Of a stretch of 16,107 nucleotides of DNA, positions 7,786 through 16,005 are shown one piece after another; positions within the stretch are counted from its first letter, which is position 1, and every line of letters begins with the position of its first letter. The notes under the pieces are model-generated. The model was not told the DNA's origin. It saw only the letters and a list, made by a program, of their open reading frames with translations, and ran no database searches. The stretch is from Clostridia bacterium. Its GTDB lineage: Bacteria; Bacillota_A; Clostridia; Christensenellales; Aristaeellaceae. The stretch covers positions 1 to 16,107 of the forward strand of contig JAFQEB010000055.1 in the NCBI GenBank assembly GCA_017399225.1, read 5' to 3'. Position numbers and translations under genes: made by a program.

Positions 7786-8865
7786 ATGAAGACCGATGCG
7801 ACCAACGGCATGACCTACGCCCCCAAGGGGAAGCCTGCCCCGGTGGTGAAGCCGGGCGAGTTCGTCTTCTCCTGCTGCCACCTGGATCACGGCCACATCT
7901 ACGGCATGACCAACGCCCTGCTGGAGGCCGGCGGCACGCTGAAGTACGTCTACGACCGGGACCCCAACCGGCTGGCGAACTTCATCAAGACCTATCCCCA
8001 GGCTCAGGCGGCCCTCTGCGAGGAGCAGGTGCTGGCTGACCCGGAGAGCCACATGGTCTGCTCCTCCTACATCACCAGCGAGCGGGGCCCCTTCGGCCTG
8101 AGGGTGATGGCGGCGGGCAAGGATTACTTTGTGGACAAGGCGCCCTTCACCACCATGGCCCAGCTGGAGGCGGCGAAGAAGCTGGCCGCCGCGACGGGCC
8201 GCAAGTACATGGTCTACTACGGCGAGCGCATCCACTGCCAGGCGGCGACCCTGGCCGGGGAGATGATCGCGGCCGGGGAGATCGGTCAGGTGATCCATGT
8301 GGAGGGCTTCGGCCCTCATCGCCTGATGGCCCATGCCCGGCCCCAGTGGTTCTTCGAGAAGGAGAAGTACGGCGGCATCCTCTGCGACATCGGCAGCCAC
8401 CAAATCGAGCAGTACCTGTACTTTGCCGGCGAAGAGGAGGCCCGCGTCACCCTCAGCCGCATCGGCAACTACGCCAACCCCGATCACCCGGAGCTGGATG
8501 ACTTCGGCGACTGCATGATCACCGGCGAAAAGGGCACGACCAACTACTTCCGCGTGGACTGGTTCACCCCCGACGGCCTGCGCACCTGGGGCGACGGCCG
8601 CACGCTGATCATCGGCACCAAGGGGTACATCGAGCTGCGCAAGTATGTAAACGTCGGCACCGACATGGTGGGCGGCGACCACCTGTACCTGGTCAACGGC
8701 TCCTCCGAGCGGTACTTCAATGCCGACGGCGCAGGCTGCCCCTTCTTCGGCCAGCTGATCCTGGACTGCCTCAACCGCACCGAGAACGCCATGACCCAGC
8801 ACCACGCCTTCAAGGCGGCGGAGCTGTGCCTGCAGGCCCAGGCCCAGGCGATCGTGGTGAAGTGA
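7786..8865 (+). CDS. Divergent Gfo/Idh/MocA-family oxidoreductase, third of three
   Basis: The predicted product has 359 residues. It keeps the overall family layout, but key motifs are altered. The dinucleotide glycine loop is replaced by SCCHLDHGHIYGM (29-41), the usual EKP is DKAP (117-120) with Lys118 kept, and the HxxD pair is HxxE in CDIGSHQIEQYL (His205, Glu208). An N-terminal extension of about 22 residues precedes the first strand. It may bind its cofactor differently, act as a non-redox lyase or epimerase, or serve as a partner subunit; these are inferences. GGAGG lies 7 nt before the ATG and 12 nt separate it from the upstream gene. It is the last gene of the AraC-linked operon, with a terminator 6 nt after the stop. 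Confidence 0.88.
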   Translation: MKTDATNGMTYAPKGKPAPVVKPGEFVFSCCHLDHGHIYGMTNALLEAGGTLKYVYDRDPNRLANFIKTYPQAQAALCEEQVLADPESHMVCSSYITSERGPFGLRVMAAGKDYFVDKAPFTTMAQLEAAKKLAAATGRKYMVYYGERIHCQAATLAGEMIAAGEIGQVIHVEGFGPHRLMAHARPQWFFEKEKYGGILCDIGSHQIEQYLYFAGEEEARVTLSRIGNYANPDHPELDDFGDCMITGEKGTTNYFRVDWFTPDGLRTWGDGRTLIIGTKGYIELRKYVNVGTDMVGGDHLYLVNGSSERYFNADGAGCPFFGQLILDCLNRTENAMTQHHAFKAAELCLQAQAQAIVVK

Positions 8866-8870
8866 TCATG

Positions 8871-8901
8871 GGCTCCCTCACTGTGAGGGGGCCTTTTTAT
8901 T
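8871..8901 (+). terminator. Intrinsic terminator of the dehydrogenase operon
   Basis: ggctccctca (8871-8880) pairs with tgagggggcc (8884-8893) through 10 positions with one G-U and a 3-nt loop. It is followed by TTTTTATT. Confidence 0.85.
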
Positions 8902-8920
8902 GTGCTGATTCATGTCCGTA

Positions 8921-8940
8921 GGGGCGACCATTGGTCGCCC
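8921..8940 (+). repeat. 20-bp near-palindrome, copy 1
   Basis: The core ggggcgaccattggtcgccc has 9-nt arms around a single central base and is preceded by cgta. Five copies lie in this window, four in this orientation and one reversed. The flanking cgta and the central T define the orientation. Confidence 0.85.
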
Positions 8941-9073
8941 GCCGTGCTGGGGGGGCGGCTGGCTGGAGGGGAGCGGATGGCCCCGCATCCCCCGGTTTCC
9001 CTGTGAAACAAAAAAGACCGGGAGCCAATGCTTCCAGCCAAGAAGGGGAATATGTGTTCTTATCCACGATATC

Positions 9074-9102
9074 ATTATAGCACACTTGACGTGATAATGC
9101 AA
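9074..9102 (-). promoter_or_regulatory. Strong promoter within repeat copy A
   Basis: On the minus strand TTGCAT (9102-9097) and TATAAT (9079-9074) have a 17-nt spacer, a near-perfect sigma-70-type promoter. It would transcribe leftward through the A element, towards a TCTTTTTTG stretch near 9015-9007, giving a short RNA. No ribosome site or convincing gene follows. Confidence 0.65.
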
Positions 9103-9210
9103 GCAAATCTTTGATAATTTTTCGCATGGGGGAGCTTTTTGACTGATCAGTCTTCCCTCTGAGTAGGGTGCCCGGGCAAGGGGGTGAGAGCCTTGTTGGG
9201 AGGGGGCGCG

Positions 9211-9342
9211 GGCTCCCACCGTCATCGCCTGCGGCGATGCCACCTGTCCCGGTCGCAATCATAGATTGCTCCCCGCTTTGGCTAAAAACATGCCACTGGC
9301 ATGTTTTCTTAACGCGTCGCGCCTCGGGGAGGGAGGCTTTGG
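9211..9342. repeat. Multi-hairpin module, copy 1 (~132 nt)
   Basis: The module has three hairpins with 3-nt loops: catcgcc/ggcgatg (9223-9239), gcaatc/gattgc (9255-9269) and aaaacatgcc/ggcatgtttt (9285-9307). The ends, ggctccc and gggaggct, are near-complementary, so the whole can fold as one branched structure. Copies lie at 9972-10104 and 13341-13473. Confidence 0.8.
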
Positions 9343-9358
9343 CGGGGGTATCCCGTTA

Positions 9359-9408
9359 CCTTCCCCCTTGGGGGAAGGGGGACCGCCGCGTCAGCGGGGG
9401 TGGATGAG
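9359..9408 (+). repeat. Two-hairpin element, copy 1
   Basis: A first stem, ccttccccc/ggggaagg (9359-9378), is followed by a second GC-rich stem ccgc/gcgg and a ggatgagg tail. The layout matches the other two-hairpin elements of the window. Confidence 0.55.
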
Positions 9409-9445
9409 GCCGTTCCTCTTGCGGCAGTATGAACATGCAGCAGCC

Positions 9446-9465
9446 GGACGACCAATGGTCGCCCC
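9446..9465 (-). repeat. 20-bp near-palindrome, copy 2 (reverse orientation)
   Basis: Read on the minus strand it is the same core with its cgta leader, except for one mismatch in the distal arm (tcgtcc for tcgccc). It is the only reversed copy. Confidence 0.8.
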
Positions 9466-9493
9466 TACGGGGATCTGGAGATCCGCACAGTCC

Positions 9494-9541
9494 AAAAGGC
9501 TCTCCCTTGGGGAGAGCTCCCGCGAAGCGGGTGAGAGGGTC
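9494..9541 (+). repeat. Two-hairpin element, copy 2
   Basis: ggctctccc/ggggagagct forms the first stem, cccgc-gaa-gcggg the second, and gtgagagggtc is the tail. It is a near-exact reverse-complement counterpart of 13573-13622. Confidence 0.75.
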
Positions 9542-9563
9542 TTGCGCGTCCGCAGACGTGCCT

Positions 9564-9640
9564 CCCTTGCGGCGTCGGGTTTCCTTGCGAGGGTCGGCGG
9601 AGGAGACCCTTTCAGTCACCTTCGGTGACAGCTCCCCCCA
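9564..9640 (+). repeat. 77-bp direct repeat, copy 1
   Basis: It matches 10243-10319 at all but about two positions and spans a non-palindromic half plus most of a two-hairpin element. The match shows that blocks larger than one module have been copied. Confidence 0.8.
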
Positions 9641-9655
9641 AGGGGGAGCCTTTTG
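9605..9655 (-). repeat. Two-hairpin element, copy 3 (reverse)
   Basis: It contains gtcacc-ttc-ggtgac and gctccccc-caa-gggggagc stems with a ttttg end. On the minus strand it has the same order as copy 2. Confidence 0.75.
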
Positions 9656-9681
9656 ACAGTGTGGAGGCCCGTGTACCCGTA

Positions 9682-9701
9682 GGGGCGACCATTGGTCGCC
9701 C
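9682..9701 (+). repeat. 20-bp near-palindrome, copy 3
   Basis: The core is identical to copy 1, with the cgta leader, at the left edge of composite copy B. Confidence 0.85.
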
Positions 9702-9834
9702 GCCGTGCTGCGGATTGGGACTGGTGGGAGGGGAGCGGATGCCCCCGCATCCCCCGCTTCCCTGTGAAACAAAAAAGACCGGGAGCCAATGCTTCCAGCC
9801 AAGAAGGGGAATATGTGTTCTTATCCACGATACC

Positions 9835-9863
9835 ATTATAGCACACTTGACGTGATAATGCAA
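9835..9863 (-). promoter_or_regulatory. Strong promoter within repeat copy B
   Basis: TTGCAT (9863-9858) and TATAAT (9840-9835) on the minus strand are 17 nt apart, identical to the promoter of copy A. Transcription would run leftward through the element. Confidence 0.65.
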
Positions 9864-9971
9864 GCAAATCTTTGATAATTTTTCGCATGGGGGGAGCTTT
9901 TACGACTGATCAGCCTTCCCTCTGGGTAGGGTGCCCGGGCAAGGGGGTGAGGGCCTTCGCGGCGTGGGGGC

Positions 9972-10104
9972 GGGCTCCCACCGTCATCGCCTGCGGCGAT
10001 GCCACCTGTCCCGGTTGCAATCATAGATTGCTCCCCGCTTTGGCTAAAAACATGCCACTGGCATGTTTTCTTAACGCGTCGCGCCTCGGGGAGGGAGGCT
10101 TTGG
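9972..10104. repeat. Multi-hairpin module, copy 2
   Basis: It has the same three hairpins as 9211-9342. The differences, such as ggttgcaatc for ggtcgcaatc, lie outside the stems. Confidence 0.8.
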
Positions 10105-10138
10105 TCGTTGCTGCTGCCGGGTGGGTTCCTTTGCGGCG
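10101..10138 (+). repeat. 38-bp direct repeat, copy 1
   Basis: The block starting ttggtcgttg and ending ttgcggcg recurs at 10216-10253 with two mismatches. Both copies follow directly on the end of a palindromic module. Confidence 0.75.
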
Positions 10139-10160
10139 GTGTGGGTGTGCGGGCTGCGGG

Positions 10161-10219
10161 GGCTCCCTCAGTCTCCGCGCAGGCGCGGAGCCAGCTCCCT
10201 CCCGGAGGGAGCCTTTTGG
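10161..10219 (-). repeat. Two-hairpin element, copy 4 (variant second stem)
   Basis: ctccgcgc-agg-cgcggag forms one stem and gctccctc-ccg-gagggagc the other, ending in cttttgg. The stem sequences differ from other copies while pairing is kept. Confidence 0.7.
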
Positions 10220-10253
10220 TCGTTGTTGCTGCCGGGTGGGTTCCCTTGCGGCG
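10216..10253 (+). repeat. 38-bp direct repeat, copy 2
   Basis: It is the second copy of 10101-10138 with two substitutions, again directly after a palindromic element. Confidence 0.75.
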
Positions 10254-10319
10254 TCGGGTTTCCTTGCGAGGGTCGGCGGGGGAGACCCTCTCAGTCACCT
10301 TCGGTGACAGCTCCCCCCA
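10243..10319 (+). repeat. 77-bp direct repeat, copy 2
   Basis: It is the second copy of 9564-9640 and overlaps the 38-bp repeat, which shows the mosaic build of the island. Confidence 0.8.
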
Positions 10320-10329
10320 GTGAGGGGGA
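10284..10329 (-). repeat. Two-hairpin element, copy 5 (incomplete)
   Basis: The gtcacc/ggtgac stem and the gctcccccc arm are present, but the closing arm is shortened to agtgaggggg and the ttttg end is missing. It marks the right end of the repeat island. Confidence 0.65.
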
Positions 10330-10378
10330 TGGAAAGGAAAGAGTTATCCTACACTTTGCACCAAAGAAATACCGAAAC

Positions 10379-10405
10379 AGCAAGCCCGCCAAGGCTTGCT
10401 TTTTC
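10379..10405 (+). terminator. Intrinsic terminator at the island edge
   Basis: agcaagcc (10379-10386) pairs perfectly with ggcttgct (10393-10400) around a 6-nt loop and is followed by ttttctt. No gene is recognised directly upstream, so what it terminates is unclear. It may be a remnant of a lost gene or the end of an island transcript. Confidence 0.65.
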
Positions 10406-10424
10406 TTGTTCTGCGTGATAGAAT
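10396..10424 (+). promoter_or_regulatory. Possible promoter of the small membrane-protein gene
   Basis: TTGCTT (10396-10401) and TAGAAT (10419-10424) are 17 nt apart and lie about 50 nt before the start codon. The -35 box overlaps the 3' arm of the terminator hairpin. Confidence 0.35.
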
Positions 10425-10473
10425 GAAAGCGACAAACTTGAATTTGGCGGAGGAATAATTTGGAGGAGTTGAC

Positions 10474-10683
10474 ATGGAAGAAAAAAAGAATGTCAGTCTG
10501 ACGGTTGTAATATTGAATTGCATTTGTGCTATTGGTTGGGATATTAATTTGTTTGTTGCCATTGCGTTCAGAGACACAAATTCTATGTCATTTGTTTTGC
10601 GTGGATTTTGTGCCATAGGATGGACAGTTGTTGCAATTATTTGGATTTGCCGTTATATTAAGTTCAAAAAGGGTAGCAAATAA
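10474..10683 (+). CDS. Small two-span membrane protein, unknown function
   Basis: The predicted product has 69 residues and I do not recognise its family. After a charged MEEKKN start it has two hydrophobic segments, about residues 8-32 and 40-62, and a KFKKGSK basic tail, so both ends probably face the cytoplasm. The tetrad-like string CAIGW occurs in each segment (18-22 and 46-50), suggesting an internal duplication. TTGGAGGAG lies just before the ATG, a convincing ribosome site. The codons are AT-rich, in sharp contrast to the GC-rich neighbours, and the gene sits between a repeat island and a strong terminator, so it may have been acquired horizontally. A partner gene or toxin role cannot be shown from sequence. 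Confidence 0.75.
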   Translation: MEEKKNVSLTVVILNCICAIGWDINLFVAIAFRDTNSMSFVLRGFCAIGWTVVAIIWICRYIKFKKGSK

Positions 10684-10720
10684 ATTCCAATTTATCGAGC
10701 AGCCACAGATCACAGGAGGG

Positions 10721-10752
10721 CGCAATTATACGCACCATTTCGGTGCATTGCG
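10721..10752 (+). other. Hairpin in the 3' region of the small gene
   Basis: cgcaat/attgcg and gcacc/ggtgc form a stacked stem with a tatac bulge. A further cgtttg/caaacg pairing (10751-10775) links it to the terminator that follows. It may protect the mRNA 3' end or belong to a small RNA. Confidence 0.4.
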
Positions 10753-10772
10753 TTTGTGGGGCGCATAAGCAA

Positions 10773-10811
10773 ACGAGCATCCGGCATGTTCACCGGATGC
10801 TCGTCTTTTTT
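10773..10811 (+). terminator. Strong intrinsic terminator of the small membrane-protein gene
   Basis: acgagcatccgg (10773-10784) pairs perfectly with ccggatgctcgt (10793-10804) around an 8-nt loop and is followed by ctttttt. Confidence 0.9.
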
Positions 10812-10840
10812 CGTAGTGGGATAAAATGTTCCTTAACAAC

Positions 10841-10863
10841 CCTCCCGCCAAGGGGGAGCCTTT
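10841..10863 (-). repeat. Partial two-hairpin element
   Basis: Only the ctcccgccaagggggagcc hairpin and the ttt end remain. 10864-10936 and 10973-11103 contain no gene or clear signal that I can identify. Confidence 0.45.
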
Positions 10864-10936
10864 GGCCGTTCACCTTGCGGCTTGTTCTGTGTTGCTGCAC
10901 AGGAGTGTCTGTTTTTCCCTGAGAGGAAGAGGGGAC

Positions 10937-10972
10937 TGGGTTCCCTTTGTTCCCTGGGTTCCCTTTGCTCCC
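10937..10972 (+). repeat. 18-bp tandem repeat, two units
   Basis: tgggttccctttgttccc (10937-10954) is followed directly by the same 18 nt with one change (10955-10972). Degenerate catgctccctatg-type units continue to about 10995. It is non-coding. Confidence 0.8.
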
Positions 10973-11103
10973 CATGCTCCCTATGTTACCCTATGCCCTC
11001 CGGGGGCACCTGTCGGTTATTATAGCAGGGAAATGCGGAAAAGTCAAGAGAAATGCAAATGGATGTTCTCTTAAATTTGTGTTACAAAACTGGCATCGCC
11101 CTT

Positions 11104-11123
11104 GCAAAGATTAGCAAAGATTA
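11104..11123 (+). repeat. 10-bp tandem repeat upstream of promoter
   Basis: gcaaagatta occurs twice in direct succession and abuts the promoter copy at 11126-11154. The A and B copies have a single related unit here, caaagattt. Confidence 0.7.
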
Positions 11124-11125
11124 GC

Positions 11126-11154
11126 TTGCATTATCACGTCAAGTGTGGTATACT
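11126..11154 (+). promoter_or_regulatory. Third copy of the repeat-island promoter
   Basis: TTGCAT (11126-11131) and TATACT (11149-11154) have a 17-nt spacer. The spacer and flanks match the minus-strand promoters at 9074-9102 and 9835-9863, including gcttgcattatcacgtcaag. The orientation is opposite to those copies. Confidence 0.7.
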
Positions 11155-11160
11155 GGTATT

Positions 11161-11235
11161 GTGAAAAAGAGAACATAAGTTCTCTGAATGGCAGCGATAC
11201 AAAGAGCCCCGCACCGGATCGGCGCGGGGCTTTGC
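11161..11235 (+). ncRNA. Candidate small RNA between promoter and terminator
   Basis: A start near 11161 would give a transcript of about 75 nt. It contains agagaac-ataa-gttctct (11168-11185), a perfect 7-bp hairpin, then the GC-rich terminator stem at 11205-11231. No open frame with a ribosome site fits. The first ~23 nt align without gaps to the start of the A and B transcripts (about 17 of 23 matches). Function is unknown; an alternative is a relic promoter from a repeat element that happens to face a terminator. Confidence 0.4.
11205..11234. terminator. Bidirectional terminator after the beta-xylosidase gene
   Basis: agccccgc (11205-11212) pairs with gcggggct (11224-11231), with an inner ccg/cgg stem. 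TTT follows on the plus strand and ctcttt on the minus strand, 15 nt past the stop of the xylosidase gene. Confidence 0.75.
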
Positions 11236-11245
11236 TGTGGCAAGA

Positions 11246-13216
11246 TCACCACAGGGGGACGTCGGTGGCCTCGGGGGAGGCGAAGGGGCCGGGGAGGGCG
11301 GTCAGGCCGCGGTGATTGCCGTAGTAGTCGCGGTCAAAGACGATGGTGGAGCCGTCCGGGCTCTCGAAGCGCTGCTCCGGCTCGAAGGCGCAGCCCAGCA
11401 CGTCGCTGTCCACGATGGCGGCGCGGTAGGCCGCGATCAGGTCGTACACATTGGTGCGCAGCACGGGGGCGCCGTCCCGCTCGGTCAGCTCAACGGCGGG
11501 CATGTCGGGCAGGACGAGGCAGTCATTCTCGTGCTTCCAGGGCTTCGCGCCGCCCAGGTACACATTGCCCCTGGCCCACACGGGCAGGTGGCTCTCATGG
11601 AACCGGGAGAGCTTGTGCATGTCGGGGCGGGCGACGTCCAGGTCGAACCAGGTGATCCACTCGTCGTAGGTGGGGTATTCGTCGAACTGCCAGGTGCCGC
11701 AGAGGCGCTCGCGCTCGTTGGGCTCGCCCCGGCGGGGATCGGGCTGCGGGTCAATGCCCTGGACGATGATGTTGTTGTAGAAGCGGTCGTCGCCGTGGAG
11801 GAAGTGCATGAAGCCCGCGACCTCGGTGCGGTGACGGATATGGTAGGGGGTATAGCGGGTGCCGGTGCCGCCGCCCACGAAGGTGAAGGTGCCCATCATC
11901 AGGTTGTGCACCAGCGCCACGCCCTGGGTAGCCATGCGGACGGCCACGCGGGAGAGCATCACGTTGTTGTCGATGAGGGTGGGGCCGTGGGAGACCTCGA
12001 TGAAGATATCCTGGCTCTCCATGCCGCCCTCGGCCCAGGTGCAGAAGTCCGGGCGCTGGTTGTGGTGCAGCAGGTTCTGGCTGATGCGGGTGCCCTGGGC
12101 CTGCCAGTCGCACCAGATGCCCATGGTGCAGTGGTGGATGTGATTGCGGCGCATGGTGACGTCGATGGCCGCGTGCAGCTTGATGCCGCTGATCTCGGCG
12201 CCGCCCAGCTCCTGCATGTTGTTGATGTGGTGGATGTGGTTGTCCTCAATGATGGAGAACACCGCGCCCATGCGGCCCACAATGCCGGTCTGCTCGCAGT
12301 GGTGGATGTGGCAGCGGCGGACGATGTGGCTGCCCACTTTCTCCTTGAGCCACCCGTGGTACTGGCCGCGGCACAGGGCGTCGCGCTCCATCTGGGTGGG
12401 GGACTTCAGGTGCTTGGTCGTGAAGTAGTGGTCATTCTCCGGGTCGTAATACTTGCCCAGGGAGATGCCGCAGCACTTGGAGTGGCTGATCTCGCAGTCC
12501 TCGATGATCCAGCCCTTTGACCAGTGGGGGCCGACCATACCGTCCTGGAAGGCAGCGGGAGGCGCCCAGGTGGTGGCGGCTTTCTCCACCCTGAAGCCGG
12601 AGAAGGTGATGTAGCCCCGGCCGGTCTCATCGGGGAAGAAGCAGCGGCGGCGGACGTTGATCTCCACCTTGCGGGTGTTGGGGTCGATATCCTGGAAGTT
12701 GCAGTAGAAGACGGTCTCGTTGCCCTCCTGCACGGTGATCCACTTGTAGACGGAGGATTCCGGCTCCCAGGAGGGGGCGTACACCTCGCCGGCGATGCAC
12801 TCCTCCATGGTCAGGGCCTCGTAGAGGGCGCGGTCATCCAGGTACACGCAGCCGGCATGGCGGACGGTGGGGGCGAAGTACCAGTCGCCGTAGACCTCCA
12901 CCACATAGGGGTTGAAGCGGCCGAAGACGGCGTTGTCCACGCGGGCCGTCCACAGGCCGTTATCCAGCCTCGTCCAGCCGGTGAGGGGCTCCGCGCCGGT
13001 GATCAGCGCACCCAGGGGCTCCACGGAGCGGTAGGTGATGCGGCTTTCCTCCGTGCCGCCGCGCTCGGGGCTGACCTGCTCGCGGTACACGCCGGGGTAG
13101 ACGAGCACCTCGTCGCCGGGCTGGGCGAGCTTCGCGGCGTCGCTGATGCGGCGGAAGGGGCGCTCCTTGCTGCCGTTGCCCTCGCGGGGGGCGGCCTGAT
13201 CGACATGCCAGATCAT
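11246..13216 (-). CDS. GH120 beta-xylosidase, right-handed beta-helix
   Basis: The predicted product has 656 residues and should release xylose from xylo-oligosaccharides with retention of configuration. It resembles, from memory, the GH120 enzyme XylC of Thermoanaerobacterium saccharolyticum along its length. Shared landmarks are the GDEVLVYPGVYREQV start of the helix, FNPYVVEVYGDWYF, NVRRRCFFPDETG, HWSKGWIIEDCEI, GSHIVRRCHIHHC, SGIKLHAAIDV and RTEVAGFMHF. The family nucleophile corresponds to Asp370 in WCDWQAQGTR, and the acid/base to Glu407 in FIEVSHGP. Between them is an insertion of about 14 residues (around 387-402) relative to the remembered XylC sequence. It has no signal peptide, so it is intracellular. 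The ATG at 13216 has AAGGAGG about 9 nt upstream. The gene stands alone, with an AT-rich -10-like tract at 13268-13278 upstream and a terminator downstream. Confidence 0.88.
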   Translation of the reverse strand: MIWHVDQAAPREGNGSKERPFRRISDAAKLAQPGDEVLVYPGVYREQVSPERGGTEESRITYRSVEPLGALITGAEPLTGWTRLDNGLWTARVDNAVFGRFNPYVVEVYGDWYFAPTVRHAGCVYLDDRALYEALTMEECIAGEVYAPSWEPESSVYKWITVQEGNETVFYCNFQDIDPNTRKVEINVRRRCFFPDETGRGYITFSGFRVEKAATTWAPPAAFQDGMVGPHWSKGWIIEDCEISHSKCCGISLGKYYDPENDHYFTTKHLKSPTQMERDALCRGQYHGWLKEKVGSHIVRRCHIHHCEQTGIVGRMGAVFSIIEDNHIHHINNMQELGGAEISGIKLHAAIDVTMRRNHIHHCTMGIWCDWQAQGTRISQNLLHHNQRPDFCTWAEGGMESQDIFIEVSHGPTLIDNNVMLSRVAVRMATQGVALVHNLMMGTFTFVGGGTGTRYTPYHIRHRTEVAGFMHFLHGDDRFYNNIIVQGIDPQPDPRRGEPNERERLCGTWQFDEYPTYDEWITWFDLDVARPDMHKLSRFHESHLPVWARGNVYLGGAKPWKHENDCLVLPDMPAVELTERDGAPVLRTNVYDLIAAYRAAIVDSDVLGCAFEPEQRFESPDGSTIVFDRDYYGNHRGLTALPGPFASPEATDVPLW

Positions 13217-13998: not shown

Positions 13999-16005
13999 GT
14001 GGAGCTGCGGAATATCGGGGTGTTCGCCCACGTGGACGCGGGAAAGACGACGCTGTCGGAGCAGCTGCTGATGCACGCCGGGGCGATCCGGAAGATCGGC
14101 AGCGTGGACGCGGGCACCGCGCATACGGACAGCCTGCCCGTGGAGCAGCGGCGGGGCATCTCGGTCAAGGCCAGCTGCGTGCGGCTCACATGGCAGGGGA
14201 CGGACATCAACCTGATCGACACCCCCGGGCATGTGGACTTCGCCGCGGAGGTGGAGCGCTCGCTGTGGGCGCTGGATGCGGCGGTGCTGGTCATCTGCGC
14301 GGTGGAGGGCGTGCAGCCCCATACGGAGACGCTCTTCCATGCGCTGCGGGAGCAGGACATTCCGGTGCTGCTGTTTTTGAACAAGACCGACCGGGAGGGC
14401 GCGGACGTCCAGCGAGTGCTGGGGCAGGTCAAGCGTCTGCTGACCCCGGACGCGGTGCCCATGGCGGATGAGGAAGCCGTGGCTGAAATGGTGTGCACCC
14501 AGGACGAGGAGCTGCTGGAGCGGTACCTGTCGGGCGAGGAGATCGACGGGGGCTTCATCCGGGAAAAGCTGGCGGAGATGACCCGCGCGGCACAGGCGTA
14601 TCCGGTGTTTGCCGGTTCGGCGCTGCGGGACGAGGGCGTCGTGCCCCTGTTGGACGCCATGGTCGACCTGCTGCCCCCGCCGGAAGCAGCTGACAAAGAT
14701 GAGAATGGGGAGAAGGGTGAAAGCGGGGCGAAGAAAGAAAACGGGGCGAAGAAAGAGGAGGGGACGAAGTCCCTGTGCGGCGTGGTGTTTGCCTCCGCGC
14801 AGGATCGCATCCTGGGCCGGGGCGTGTGGGTGCGCCTCTATGCAGGCAGGCTGGAGAACCGCGAGCCGGTGAATCTCCCGGCGGGCATCGATCCCCTCAC
14901 GGGCGATGAGAAGCTGGTGCAGCGCAAGATCAGTCAAATTCGCCGGGTGGACGGCAGCGACGCAGGCAGCCTCACCGCCGGTGAGATCGGCGTGGTGTAT
15001 GGCCTGGGCGACGTGGGCGTTGGGCATGTGCTGGGCGACAGCGCGCTCCTGCCCCGGCGCGTGGAGCCCGGACGGCTGCGCACGCCGCTGATCACGGTGC
15101 AGGTCATCCCCGAAAAGCCGGAGGAGATGCAGGCCCTGCGGGCAGCGTGCGGCGCCCTGGCAGCGGAGGATCCCCTTCTGCAGGTGCATTACGCCAAGGC
15201 GCTGGGGGAGCTGCAGCTGCATGTGATGGGCGCCATCCAGCTGGAGATCATCCAGGAGGAGATCGCCGGGCGCTTTGGCATGAAGGTGAGCTTCTCCAAG
15301 CCGGCGGTGATTTATAAGGAGACCATCGCGCAGGCGGCCAGCGGCTTTGTGGCCTACACCATGCCCAAGCCCTGCTGGGCGATCATGCGCTTTGAGATCG
15401 AGCCTGCCCCCCGCGGCAGCGGCGTGACCTTCAAGTCCATCGTGCCGGTGAAGGACATCCTGCTGCGCTATCAGCATCAGGTGGAGCAGGCCCTGCCCCT
15501 GGCCCTCAACCAGGGCCGCCTGGGCTGGCAGGTGACGGACGTGAACATCACCCTGGTGGACGGCAATCACCACCAGTTCCACACCCACCCGCTGGACTTC
15601 ATCGTTGCGACGCCCTGGGGCATTCAGGACGGATTACAGCGGGGCGGCTCGACGCTGCTGGAGCCGATCCTGGAGACGCGCTTCCTGCTGCCGCCGGACT
15701 GCGTGGGCCGCGTGATGAGCGACGTGGCGCAGATGCGCGGCGAGGTGACGGACACGCAGACGGACGCGGATCGCGTGCTGATGACGGCGCTGATCCCGGT
15801 GGCGACGAGTGTGGATTATGCTTCGACGCTGGCGAGCATCACCAGCGGAAGGGGGAGCATGAGTGTGAAGCTGCACGGGTATCGGGATTGTCCGCTGGAG
15901 CTGGGTGCGACGGCGAAGCGGAGGAATGTGGATCCGCTGGACACGGCGAAGTACATCCTGGCAGCCCGCAGCGCCTTGGAAGGCGGCATCTTTGATTTAG
16001 ACTAA
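13999..16005 (+). CDS. Tet(M)/EF-G-like ribosomal protection GTPase
   Basis: The predicted cytoplasmic translation GTPase has 668 residues; Tet(M) has 639. The G domain has AHVDAGKT (10-17), RRGISVKAS (51-59), DTPGH (74-78) and NKTD (128-131), all intact. Domains II-V follow the Tet(M) order, and TSGRGSMSVKLHGY matches domain V. A charged linker, about 230-257, with repeated GAKKEN/GAKKEE separates the G domain from domain II and is absent from Tet(M). The domain IV tip, SPVSTPADF in Tet(M), is QFHTHPLDF here. It may give tetracycline tolerance, but this divergence makes a housekeeping or stress role in translation equally possible. The start is GTG at 13999, with AGGGGGA 8 nt upstream. The gene has its own promoter and no mobile genes beside it. 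Confidence 0.88.
   Translation: MELRNIGVFAHVDAGKTTLSEQLLMHAGAIRKIGSVDAGTAHTDSLPVEQRRGISVKASCVRLTWQGTDINLIDTPGHVDFAAEVERSLWALDAAVLVICAVEGVQPHTETLFHALREQDIPVLLFLNKTDREGADVQRVLGQVKRLLTPDAVPMADEEAVAEMVCTQDEELLERYLSGEEIDGGFIREKLAEMTRAAQAYPVFAGSALRDEGVVPLLDAMVDLLPPPEAADKDENGEKGESGAKKENGAKKEEGTKSLCGVVFASAQDRILGRGVWVRLYAGRLENREPVNLPAGIDPLTGDEKLVQRKISQIRRVDGSDAGSLTAGEIGVVYGLGDVGVGHVLGDSALLPRRVEPGRLRTPLITVQVIPEKPEEMQALRAACGALAAEDPLLQVHYAKALGELQLHVMGAIQLEIIQEEIAGRFGMKVSFSKPAVIYKETIAQAASGFVAYTMPKPCWAIMRFEIEPAPRGSGVTFKSIVPVKDILLRYQHQVEQALPLALNQGRLGWQVTDVNITLVDGNHHQFHTHPLDFIVATPWGIQDGLQRGGSTLLEPILETRFLLPPDCVGRVMSDVAQMRGEVTDTQTDADRVLMTALIPVATSVDYASTLASITSGRGSMSVKLHGYRDCPLELGATAKRRNVDPLDTAKYILAARSALEGGIFDLD

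Follow-up and report, generated by a model that had tools for sequence, protein, structure and literature searches.

Three promoter sites in a Clostridia contig as likely orphan copies of a prophage-type late-promoter leader

We analysed three similar sites, copies A, B and C, in a 16,107-nt stretch of DNA from a Clostridia bacterium (GenBank assembly GCA_017399225.1, contig JAFQEB010000055.1, forward strand), the whole of which is called the window here. An initial annotation, made from the letters alone, had described them as one strong promoter in three places, driving a family of small RNAs. In our analysis the three sites are likely to be orphan copies of a late-promoter leader that belongs to a prophage-like element of the genus, gated by the SOS response and giving rise to short RNAs of about 58 and 75 nt. 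That they are copies of a prophage-type late-promoter module is well supported by sequence comparison. SOS control and activation by a helix-turn-helix (HTH) protein are predicted, with good support in the sequences, and each site in the window probably makes only a short, quickly ended RNA.

Each site carries TTGCAT, a 17-nt spacer and TATAAT or TATACT at exactly the positions first reported. Copies A (9102-9074; TTGCAT at 9102-9097, TATAAT at 9079-9074) and B (9863-9835, TATAAT) lie on the minus strand and copy C (11126-11154, TATACT) on the plus strand. The 29-nt pattern was matched three times in the window and not at all in 200 shuffles. The −10 of the module is of the extended type (TGnTATAAT), in A and C as elsewhere. 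That the promoter is strong, as had been claimed, is doubtful: TTGCAT agrees with TTGACA at 3/6 positions, and the repeat array described below is typical of an activator. Because the −35 is poor, the −10 is extended and a sigma-70 consensus scan of 8860-11260 did not list the three sites, the promoter looks activator-dependent more than strong. Copies A and C are identical at 61/72 positions across array, promoter and a downstream SOS-type box, and 3′ of the box they have no similarity (local score 7.0, equalled by 197/500 shuffles). The resemblance, thought to continue 23 nt past the start sites, actually stops about 23 nt past the −10. Copies A and B lie in one tandem duplication, and there are therefore only two independent cases. 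No credible gene stands directly behind the sites, as had been noted; overlapping open reading frames (ORFs; for example 9616-9888, minus strand) were unconvincing on inspection, and neither ORF inspection nor tblastn showed packaging or structural genes driven by the window copies. Separately, a near-consensus promoter (TTGACT, 17 nt, TATAAT, extended −10) was seen at 11047-11019 on the minus strand, divergent from copy C, with no credible gene behind it.

The relatives sampled were 18 genomes of a single tool-defined genus, of which we take the window to represent a further species. A comparison of block A with 22 relatives gave clear homologues in G001, G005, G006 and G007, and the G001 copy was matched in 10/18 genus genomes. 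A profile that includes the window sequences (R1) gave a match of at least 30 bits in 14/18 genomes, with 20 such matches in total. A second profile (R2), built from eight prophage leaders only and holding no window sequence, found exactly three sites in the window (E = 3.8e-17, 7.7e-17 and 2.7e-16) and nothing more at E ≤ 1. In 200 genomes of the family, R1 reached 30 bits in 8, all of this genus; in 396 genomes of the order, R2 reached E ≤ 1e-6 only in G006 and G023, both again of this genus. As far as sampled, and with the stricter filters of these wide searches, the module appears restricted to the genus. Outside the genus R1 also had numerous weak matches (17-28 bits), and inside it two of 23 bits that precede ordinary genes, as might be seen if the sites were ordinary sigma-70 promoters alike by chance. 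The window sites, however, score 53-56 bits with the independent profile R2, and shuffling predicts no chance match to the 29-nt pattern; we rejected this explanation, whose probability we regard as negligible. The exact 20-mer TTGCATTATCACGTCAAGTG had 0 matches in viral_contigs or genome_contigs, and the 3′ half of the promoter spacer is specific to the window genome. BLAST matches of block C to plasmids were confined to the terminator stem region, block A, searched in phages, matched two records of a single Bacillus phage over 37 nt (E = 0.01), and a search of 80 EF-G-like loci gave no clear copy of the module (best E = 0.14).

The genes behind the homologues identify the module. The 20 R1 matches of at least 30 bits comprise 14 upstream of a terS-like motif, two upstream of a DNA-deoxyinosine glycosylase gene and four with neither. 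The prophage copies occur once per genome in 14/18 genomes, and the terS-type motif ([DGA][IVA][AS][TS]P[DEQ]EVL) stands 91-173 nt after the start of the −10 in 14/14. The TerS protein behind the module matches phrog_51 in 4/4 tested, and further phage genes follow, encoding TerL (phrog_38, E = 2.9e-65, in G007), portal (phrog_64/PF05133, E = 3.9e-27, in G006) and capsid (phrog_267, in G001). In two of these 14 genomes, G006 and G007, a further copy of the module, with no terminator, stands before the glycosylase gene (TIGR04274, E = 1e-40 and 5.8e-39; L133:985-1479 and L134:982-1461, minus strand). The four copies with neither gene are all in G006, where a fifth, of 21.7 bits, forms a divergent pair with one of them; "orphan" is provisional there, C10a having co-directional ORFs about 0.3 kb on and the contig of C73b ending about 0.5 kb on. 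As a side observation, L137 and L212 of this genome (G006:C73 and C18), both lacking a phage operon, have in common the promoter, the box ACGAACGTATG and a long hairpin, of −32.4 and −23.6 kcal/mol respectively; they may be a real pair of small RNAs.

Upstream of the promoter, and extending into its spacer, lies an array of short direct repeats on a 10-bp grid. In copy A (9092-9122, minus strand) the motif T-N-A-[TG]-C-A stands at −18 and −38 from the −10; copy B (9853-9883, minus strand) is its tandem duplicate, and copy C (11106-11136, plus strand), with GATTAGCAAAGATTAGCTTGCATTATCA, likewise has 10-bp units with the motif at −18 and −38. The conserved TTGCATTATCAC within the spacer is the last array unit. 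Repeats are thus seen in the window copies, that of A alone being weak; the lag-10 score was equalled by 19/1000 shuffles for C. In the 14 prophage copies, the mean self-match was highest at lags 10 and 20 (0.45 and 0.47); the remaining lags between 4 and 25 gave 0.21-0.30. Individually, 8/14 gave 0/1000 shuffles at lag 10 and G002 gave 30/1000; five with mixed 9/10-bp spacing were not significant. The motif varies among copies (TTATCA/TTAGCA, TGTCC, or TTTAC in G003), and most motif starts share a single grid (−18, −28, −38, −48 and onwards), slipping by one or two bases in the TGTCC group.

A candidate activator is encoded beside the prophage copies. In 13/14 prophage loci (not G002) the −10 is preceded, at a distance of 0-98 nt, by the end of an ORF (130-155 aa in the alignment) that encodes a sigma-region-4-like HTH towards the C-terminal side. 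These proteins matched phrog_36 in 11/13 cases and phrog_248 in 7/13 (E ≤ 0.05), both annotated as transcription regulation; a protein search of phage records with one of them gave no match. TGTCC copies pair with a mostly RHANRLR-like HTH helix and TTATCA copies with SRxRxNQxR, a correspondence that is supportive only, as it reflects two clades plus G003 and not 13 independent cases. No small HTH regulator is encoded directly upstream of the window copies (tblastn, best E = 0.08), which are therefore orphan copies of such a promoter.

This arrangement has a described counterpart. The late promoter P23 of the Staphylococcus aureus phage phi13 has a small regulator directly upstream, direct repeats needed for activity, and packaging and structural genes downstream (PMC13123087). 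In the available part of the same source, Ltr families are about 130 aa and bind four imperfect repeats, the Alt repeats of TP901-1 lie at −76 to −32, and those of phi13 are 18 bp long (PMC13123087). In regulator position, regulator size and repeats, the prophage copies resemble these Ltr/RinA-type late promoters, as far as that part of the account describes them. Unlike phi13 and TP901-1, they have 10-bp units on a grid that runs into the spacer; the SOS-type box and leader terminator are additions, neither being mentioned for phi13 in the available part of the paper (PMC13123087). A further difference from phi13 as described there is that copies of the module also stand without phage genes elsewhere in the genome (PMC13123087).

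The downstream block is an SOS-type box. Copies A and B carry GAACACATATTC (9048-9059 and 9809-9820, minus strand), with one mismatch to GAAC-N4-GTTC, and copy C carries the perfect palindrome GAACATAAGTTC (11171-11182, plus strand). This palindrome is the core of a 7-bp hairpin, and it accounts both for the first hairpin reported behind copy C (11169-11186) and for the extra similarity past the promoter. A GAAC-N4-GTTC sequence with at most one mismatch was found within 45 nt of the −10 in 23/24 leaders, 8-19 nt after it, versus 1.1% of 20,000 random 45-nt genomic stretches; the box column counts omit the near-duplicates winB, G027 and G006C18b. In the same genus, GAAC-N4-GTTT occurs upstream of lexA in 5/5 loci that reach 84 bits or more (5/11 genomes searched had a lexA of this kind), and AAAC-N4-GTTC in the recA promoter in 7/8 examined, of nine strong recA loci. 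Five further LexA-domain loci were weaker; in the three of them on the plus strand, the 350 nt upstream contained no box of this type. The LexA box of Firmicutes is given as GAACn4GTTC / CGAACRNRYGTTYC in the part of the source available (PMC2248561), and the boxes described here share its core consensus and palindrome (PMC2248561). They differ from that reference in lying inside the putative transcribed leader of the promoter. We infer from this likeness that LexA binds the box.

Copies A and B are each followed by an intrinsic terminator, absent from the initial annotation, with a hairpin and a six-T run (9010-9039, stem 9039-9016, −12.1 kcal/mol, and 9771-9800, both minus strand), ending 59 nt after the −10. 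For copy C a hairpin plus terminator had been described; a terminator-like hairpin (11204-11236, plus strand) does end 77 nt after the −10, but its T run is weak and the first hairpin is the box. The terminator hairpin of C also lies directly behind a convergent GH120-type gene. RNAs of about 58 nt for A and about 75 nt for C are predicted if transcription starts near 9067 and 11161, respectively. A terminator ending 48-74 nt past the −10 was found in 12/14 prophage leaders; in nine, a recognisable ribosome-binding site follows it after 9-33 nt. Among the five G006 copies without a phage operon three have hairpins with a poor T run and two have none. The prophage leaders also tend to have a 5′ stem: a 6-bp partner making at least five Watson-Crick pairs with GUGGAA or its variants was found within 27-85 nt in 7/14, where 1.07 were expected, and it changes on both sides (GUGGAA/UUCCAC, GCGGAA/UUCCGC, GUGGUC/GACCAC).

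Taken as a working model, the Ltr/RinA/ArpU-like HTH protein whose gene adjoins the prophage copies would bind the array along one helix face and recruit RNA polymerase to the weak promoter, while LexA on the box would block the promoter until DNA damage occurs. In the prophage, polymerase would get past the leader terminator and on to terS through antitermination or partial read-through, as at lambda pR′-tR′. In the window, where no gene lies behind the terminator, only the short RNAs (about 58 nt from A and B, about 75 nt from C) would be made, SOS-induced and activator-dependent. At lambda pR′-tR′ (6S RNA) a late promoter has a terminator shortly downstream, and a short RNA results unless polymerase is made termination-resistant. 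The likeness suggested here is of layout, late promoter with early terminator; a Q-like family was matched by just 2/13 of the HTH proteins (best E = 0.016).

Several observations weigh against the late-promoter interpretation. The prophage and the HTH gene are known from the genomes of relatives, and the window itself shows neither. The array is uneven: 5/6 TGTCC-type arrays are not significant at lag 10 (equalled by 661-902/1000 shuffles) and that of window copy A is weak (76/1000), off-grid motifs occur at −75 (G025), −64 (G014) and −70/−72 (A and B), and a motif search came up empty in G002, in the glycosylase copy of G007 and in both G006 C10 copies. The boxes of A and B have a mismatch in the core, and shuffles of the same 45 nt equalled the box score in 0-124/2000 cases for the 23 leaders; the G006 glycosylase copy, with two mismatches, was equalled in 390/2000. 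No terminator was found in the leaders of G022 and G028 or in both glycosylase copies. By chance, 13% (minus) or 27% (plus) of window positions have a terminator 48-78 nt downstream, and the T run of copy C is weak; because of this chance rate the window terminators are suggestive only. Finally, A and C are without the prophage 5′ stem, so that the window copies have kept the DNA control part but not that RNA structure.

The proposal of a small-RNA family fared unevenly. The common promoter, the want of a credible gene behind it and the terminator hairpins stood, but the RNA bodies of A and C proved unrelated. We rejected a common RNA family, as the shared part is a DNA control sequence (10-bp array, promoter and SOS-type box) with no RNA similarity between A and C past the box. 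The sites may nonetheless be functional small-RNA genes, each making a discrete regulatory RNA, which would be compatible with their origin as late promoters. All three sites have a promoter and a terminator-like hairpin ending 59-77 nt after the −10, the six-T run is good in A and B, and the two G006 copies without a phage operon described above have promoter, box and strong hairpin in common. Against this stand the unrelated RNAs 3′ of the box and the result of the Rfam search, which gave 0 matches in the window at the gathering score, weak ones below it being rejected. No module was seen by eye in the 3′ flanks of the GH120 gene in 12 relatives or of the Gfo/Idh gene in 6, though the neighbourhoods differ from that of the window and two flanks are cut by contig ends; R2 gave just two scraps of 11-14 bits on 20 of the 30 flank loci. 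The window sites thus look lineage-specific as far as we looked, and separate functional small RNAs seem to us rather unlikely.

A second possibility compatible with late-promoter identity is that the sites are non-functional relics, left by repeat expansion or duplication or by a lost prophage. Copies A and B lie in a tandem duplication of about 760 bp (approximate limits 8911-10334, no strand assigned) that consists largely of intergenic repeats; a 143-nt block is 98% identical between its halves (spacing 761) and a 144-nt block 97% (spacing 762). Pieces of the unit at about 9206-9346, 8916-8971, 9488-9564 and 9596-9664 recur elsewhere in 12/18 genus genomes, and for these intergenic repeat families 20-36 matches were listed in some of the genomes. 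The idea that the promoters sit inside mobile repeats was therefore correct in part: other pieces of the unit are dispersed genus repeats, but the promoter-terminator piece (8990-9140) matched only promoter homologues among the candidates scored, at most 29 per genome. A dispersed mobile element carrying the promoter was rejected on this basis. Besides the repeat-rich duplication, the lineage-specific distribution and the loss of the prophage 5′ stem favour relics, as does the fact that TerS, TerL, portal and HTH proteins gave only chance tblastn matches in the window (best E = 0.08). A decayed prophage, however, should leave other pieces, and A and C retain the array register, the extended −10 and the box amid unrelated surroundings. 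We place relics somewhat short of an even chance, about as likely as anything functional.

The sites might also act as decoys: by titrating LexA or the late activator, these spare binding sites would set the phage-like element's threshold, again compatibly with a late-promoter identity. Copies A and C share only their DNA-binding parts, and a single genome can hold several copies (five in G006 besides the prophage and glycosylase copies). Terminators would be unnecessary for this role, however, and we regard decoys as quite improbable.

The element that would have given rise to the late-promoter copies is compact. In G001 (L117/L231, G001:C129, about 84.5-95.6 kb) it covers about 11 kb and encodes XRE-ImmA, HTH, TerS, TerL, portal, scaffold, capsid, a prophage tail endopeptidase and a peptidoglycan-binding lysin. 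Behind it lie a phosphoesterase gene and mnmE. Neither an integrase nor a replication gene was recognised in the element. Other loci of the element are L118, L119, L121, L204 and L131. In G001 and G007 the XRE repressor (PF01381) and ImmA-type protease (PF06114) are divergent beside the HTH gene. Each of the 14 prophage contigs stops 0.9-2.2 kb upstream of the promoter. In G003 and G022 the contig end is the 5′ end of 16S rRNA (RF00177), and the roughly 440 nt between it and the HTH gene leave no room for XRE-ImmA. As 13/14 contig ends (G003 included, not G024) match this 16S-containing G003 end at E ≤ 1e-4, the element adjoins an rRNA operon in nearly all 14 genomes. Such a position points to vertical inheritance, and the phage-like element has probably been domesticated beside the rRNA operon.

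In PBSX-like defective prophages of Bacillus and in gene transfer agents, genes for a repressor and a protease adjoin that of a small regulator, and terS-terL-portal come after it. The element appears similar to them in its repressor and protease, small regulator and terS-terL-portal order, with no integrase recognised and a place beside the rRNA operon. This likeness is one of gene layout, for an element of about 11 kb in G001.

It is conceivable, if doubtful, that the domesticated element has lent its late-promoter module to the host, giving a dispersed SOS-gated, array-activated regulon that would include the deoxyinosine glycosylase and gene-less promoter-terminator units, with short RNAs or binding sites feeding back on the element or on the SOS response. 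What had appeared to be a small-RNA family thereby becomes a testable regulatory module. Its detachment from the phage operon, before a repair gene or before no gene, bears on how hosts take over phage control elements in uncultured gut Clostridia. The combination of a grid array whose motif varies with HTH type, an SOS-type box and a leader terminator may be new as a unit; we did not find it described in the literature searched, which most subscription papers lie outside.

Elsewhere in the window, the GH120-type protein (11246-13216) has full-length relatives 82-86% identical in 8 of the 18 genus genomes. The EF-G-like protein (13999-16002) has 81-84% identical relatives in seven contigs (L001-L007) from metagenome-assembled genomes, 5/7 of which are labelled as from goat, sheep or roe deer cecum, colon or rectum. 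The intergenic stretches 10310-10446 and 10713-10852 have counterparts in L004 and L011, at 89% and 81% identity. A hairpin repeat at 10160-10214 (minus strand) gave a weak Rfam match to whalefall-1 (26.6 bits, gathering score 37, E = 3.8e-4). Between the repeats, at 10474-10683 on the plus strand, a lone ORF of 69 aa is hydrophobic and possibly encodes a small membrane protein.

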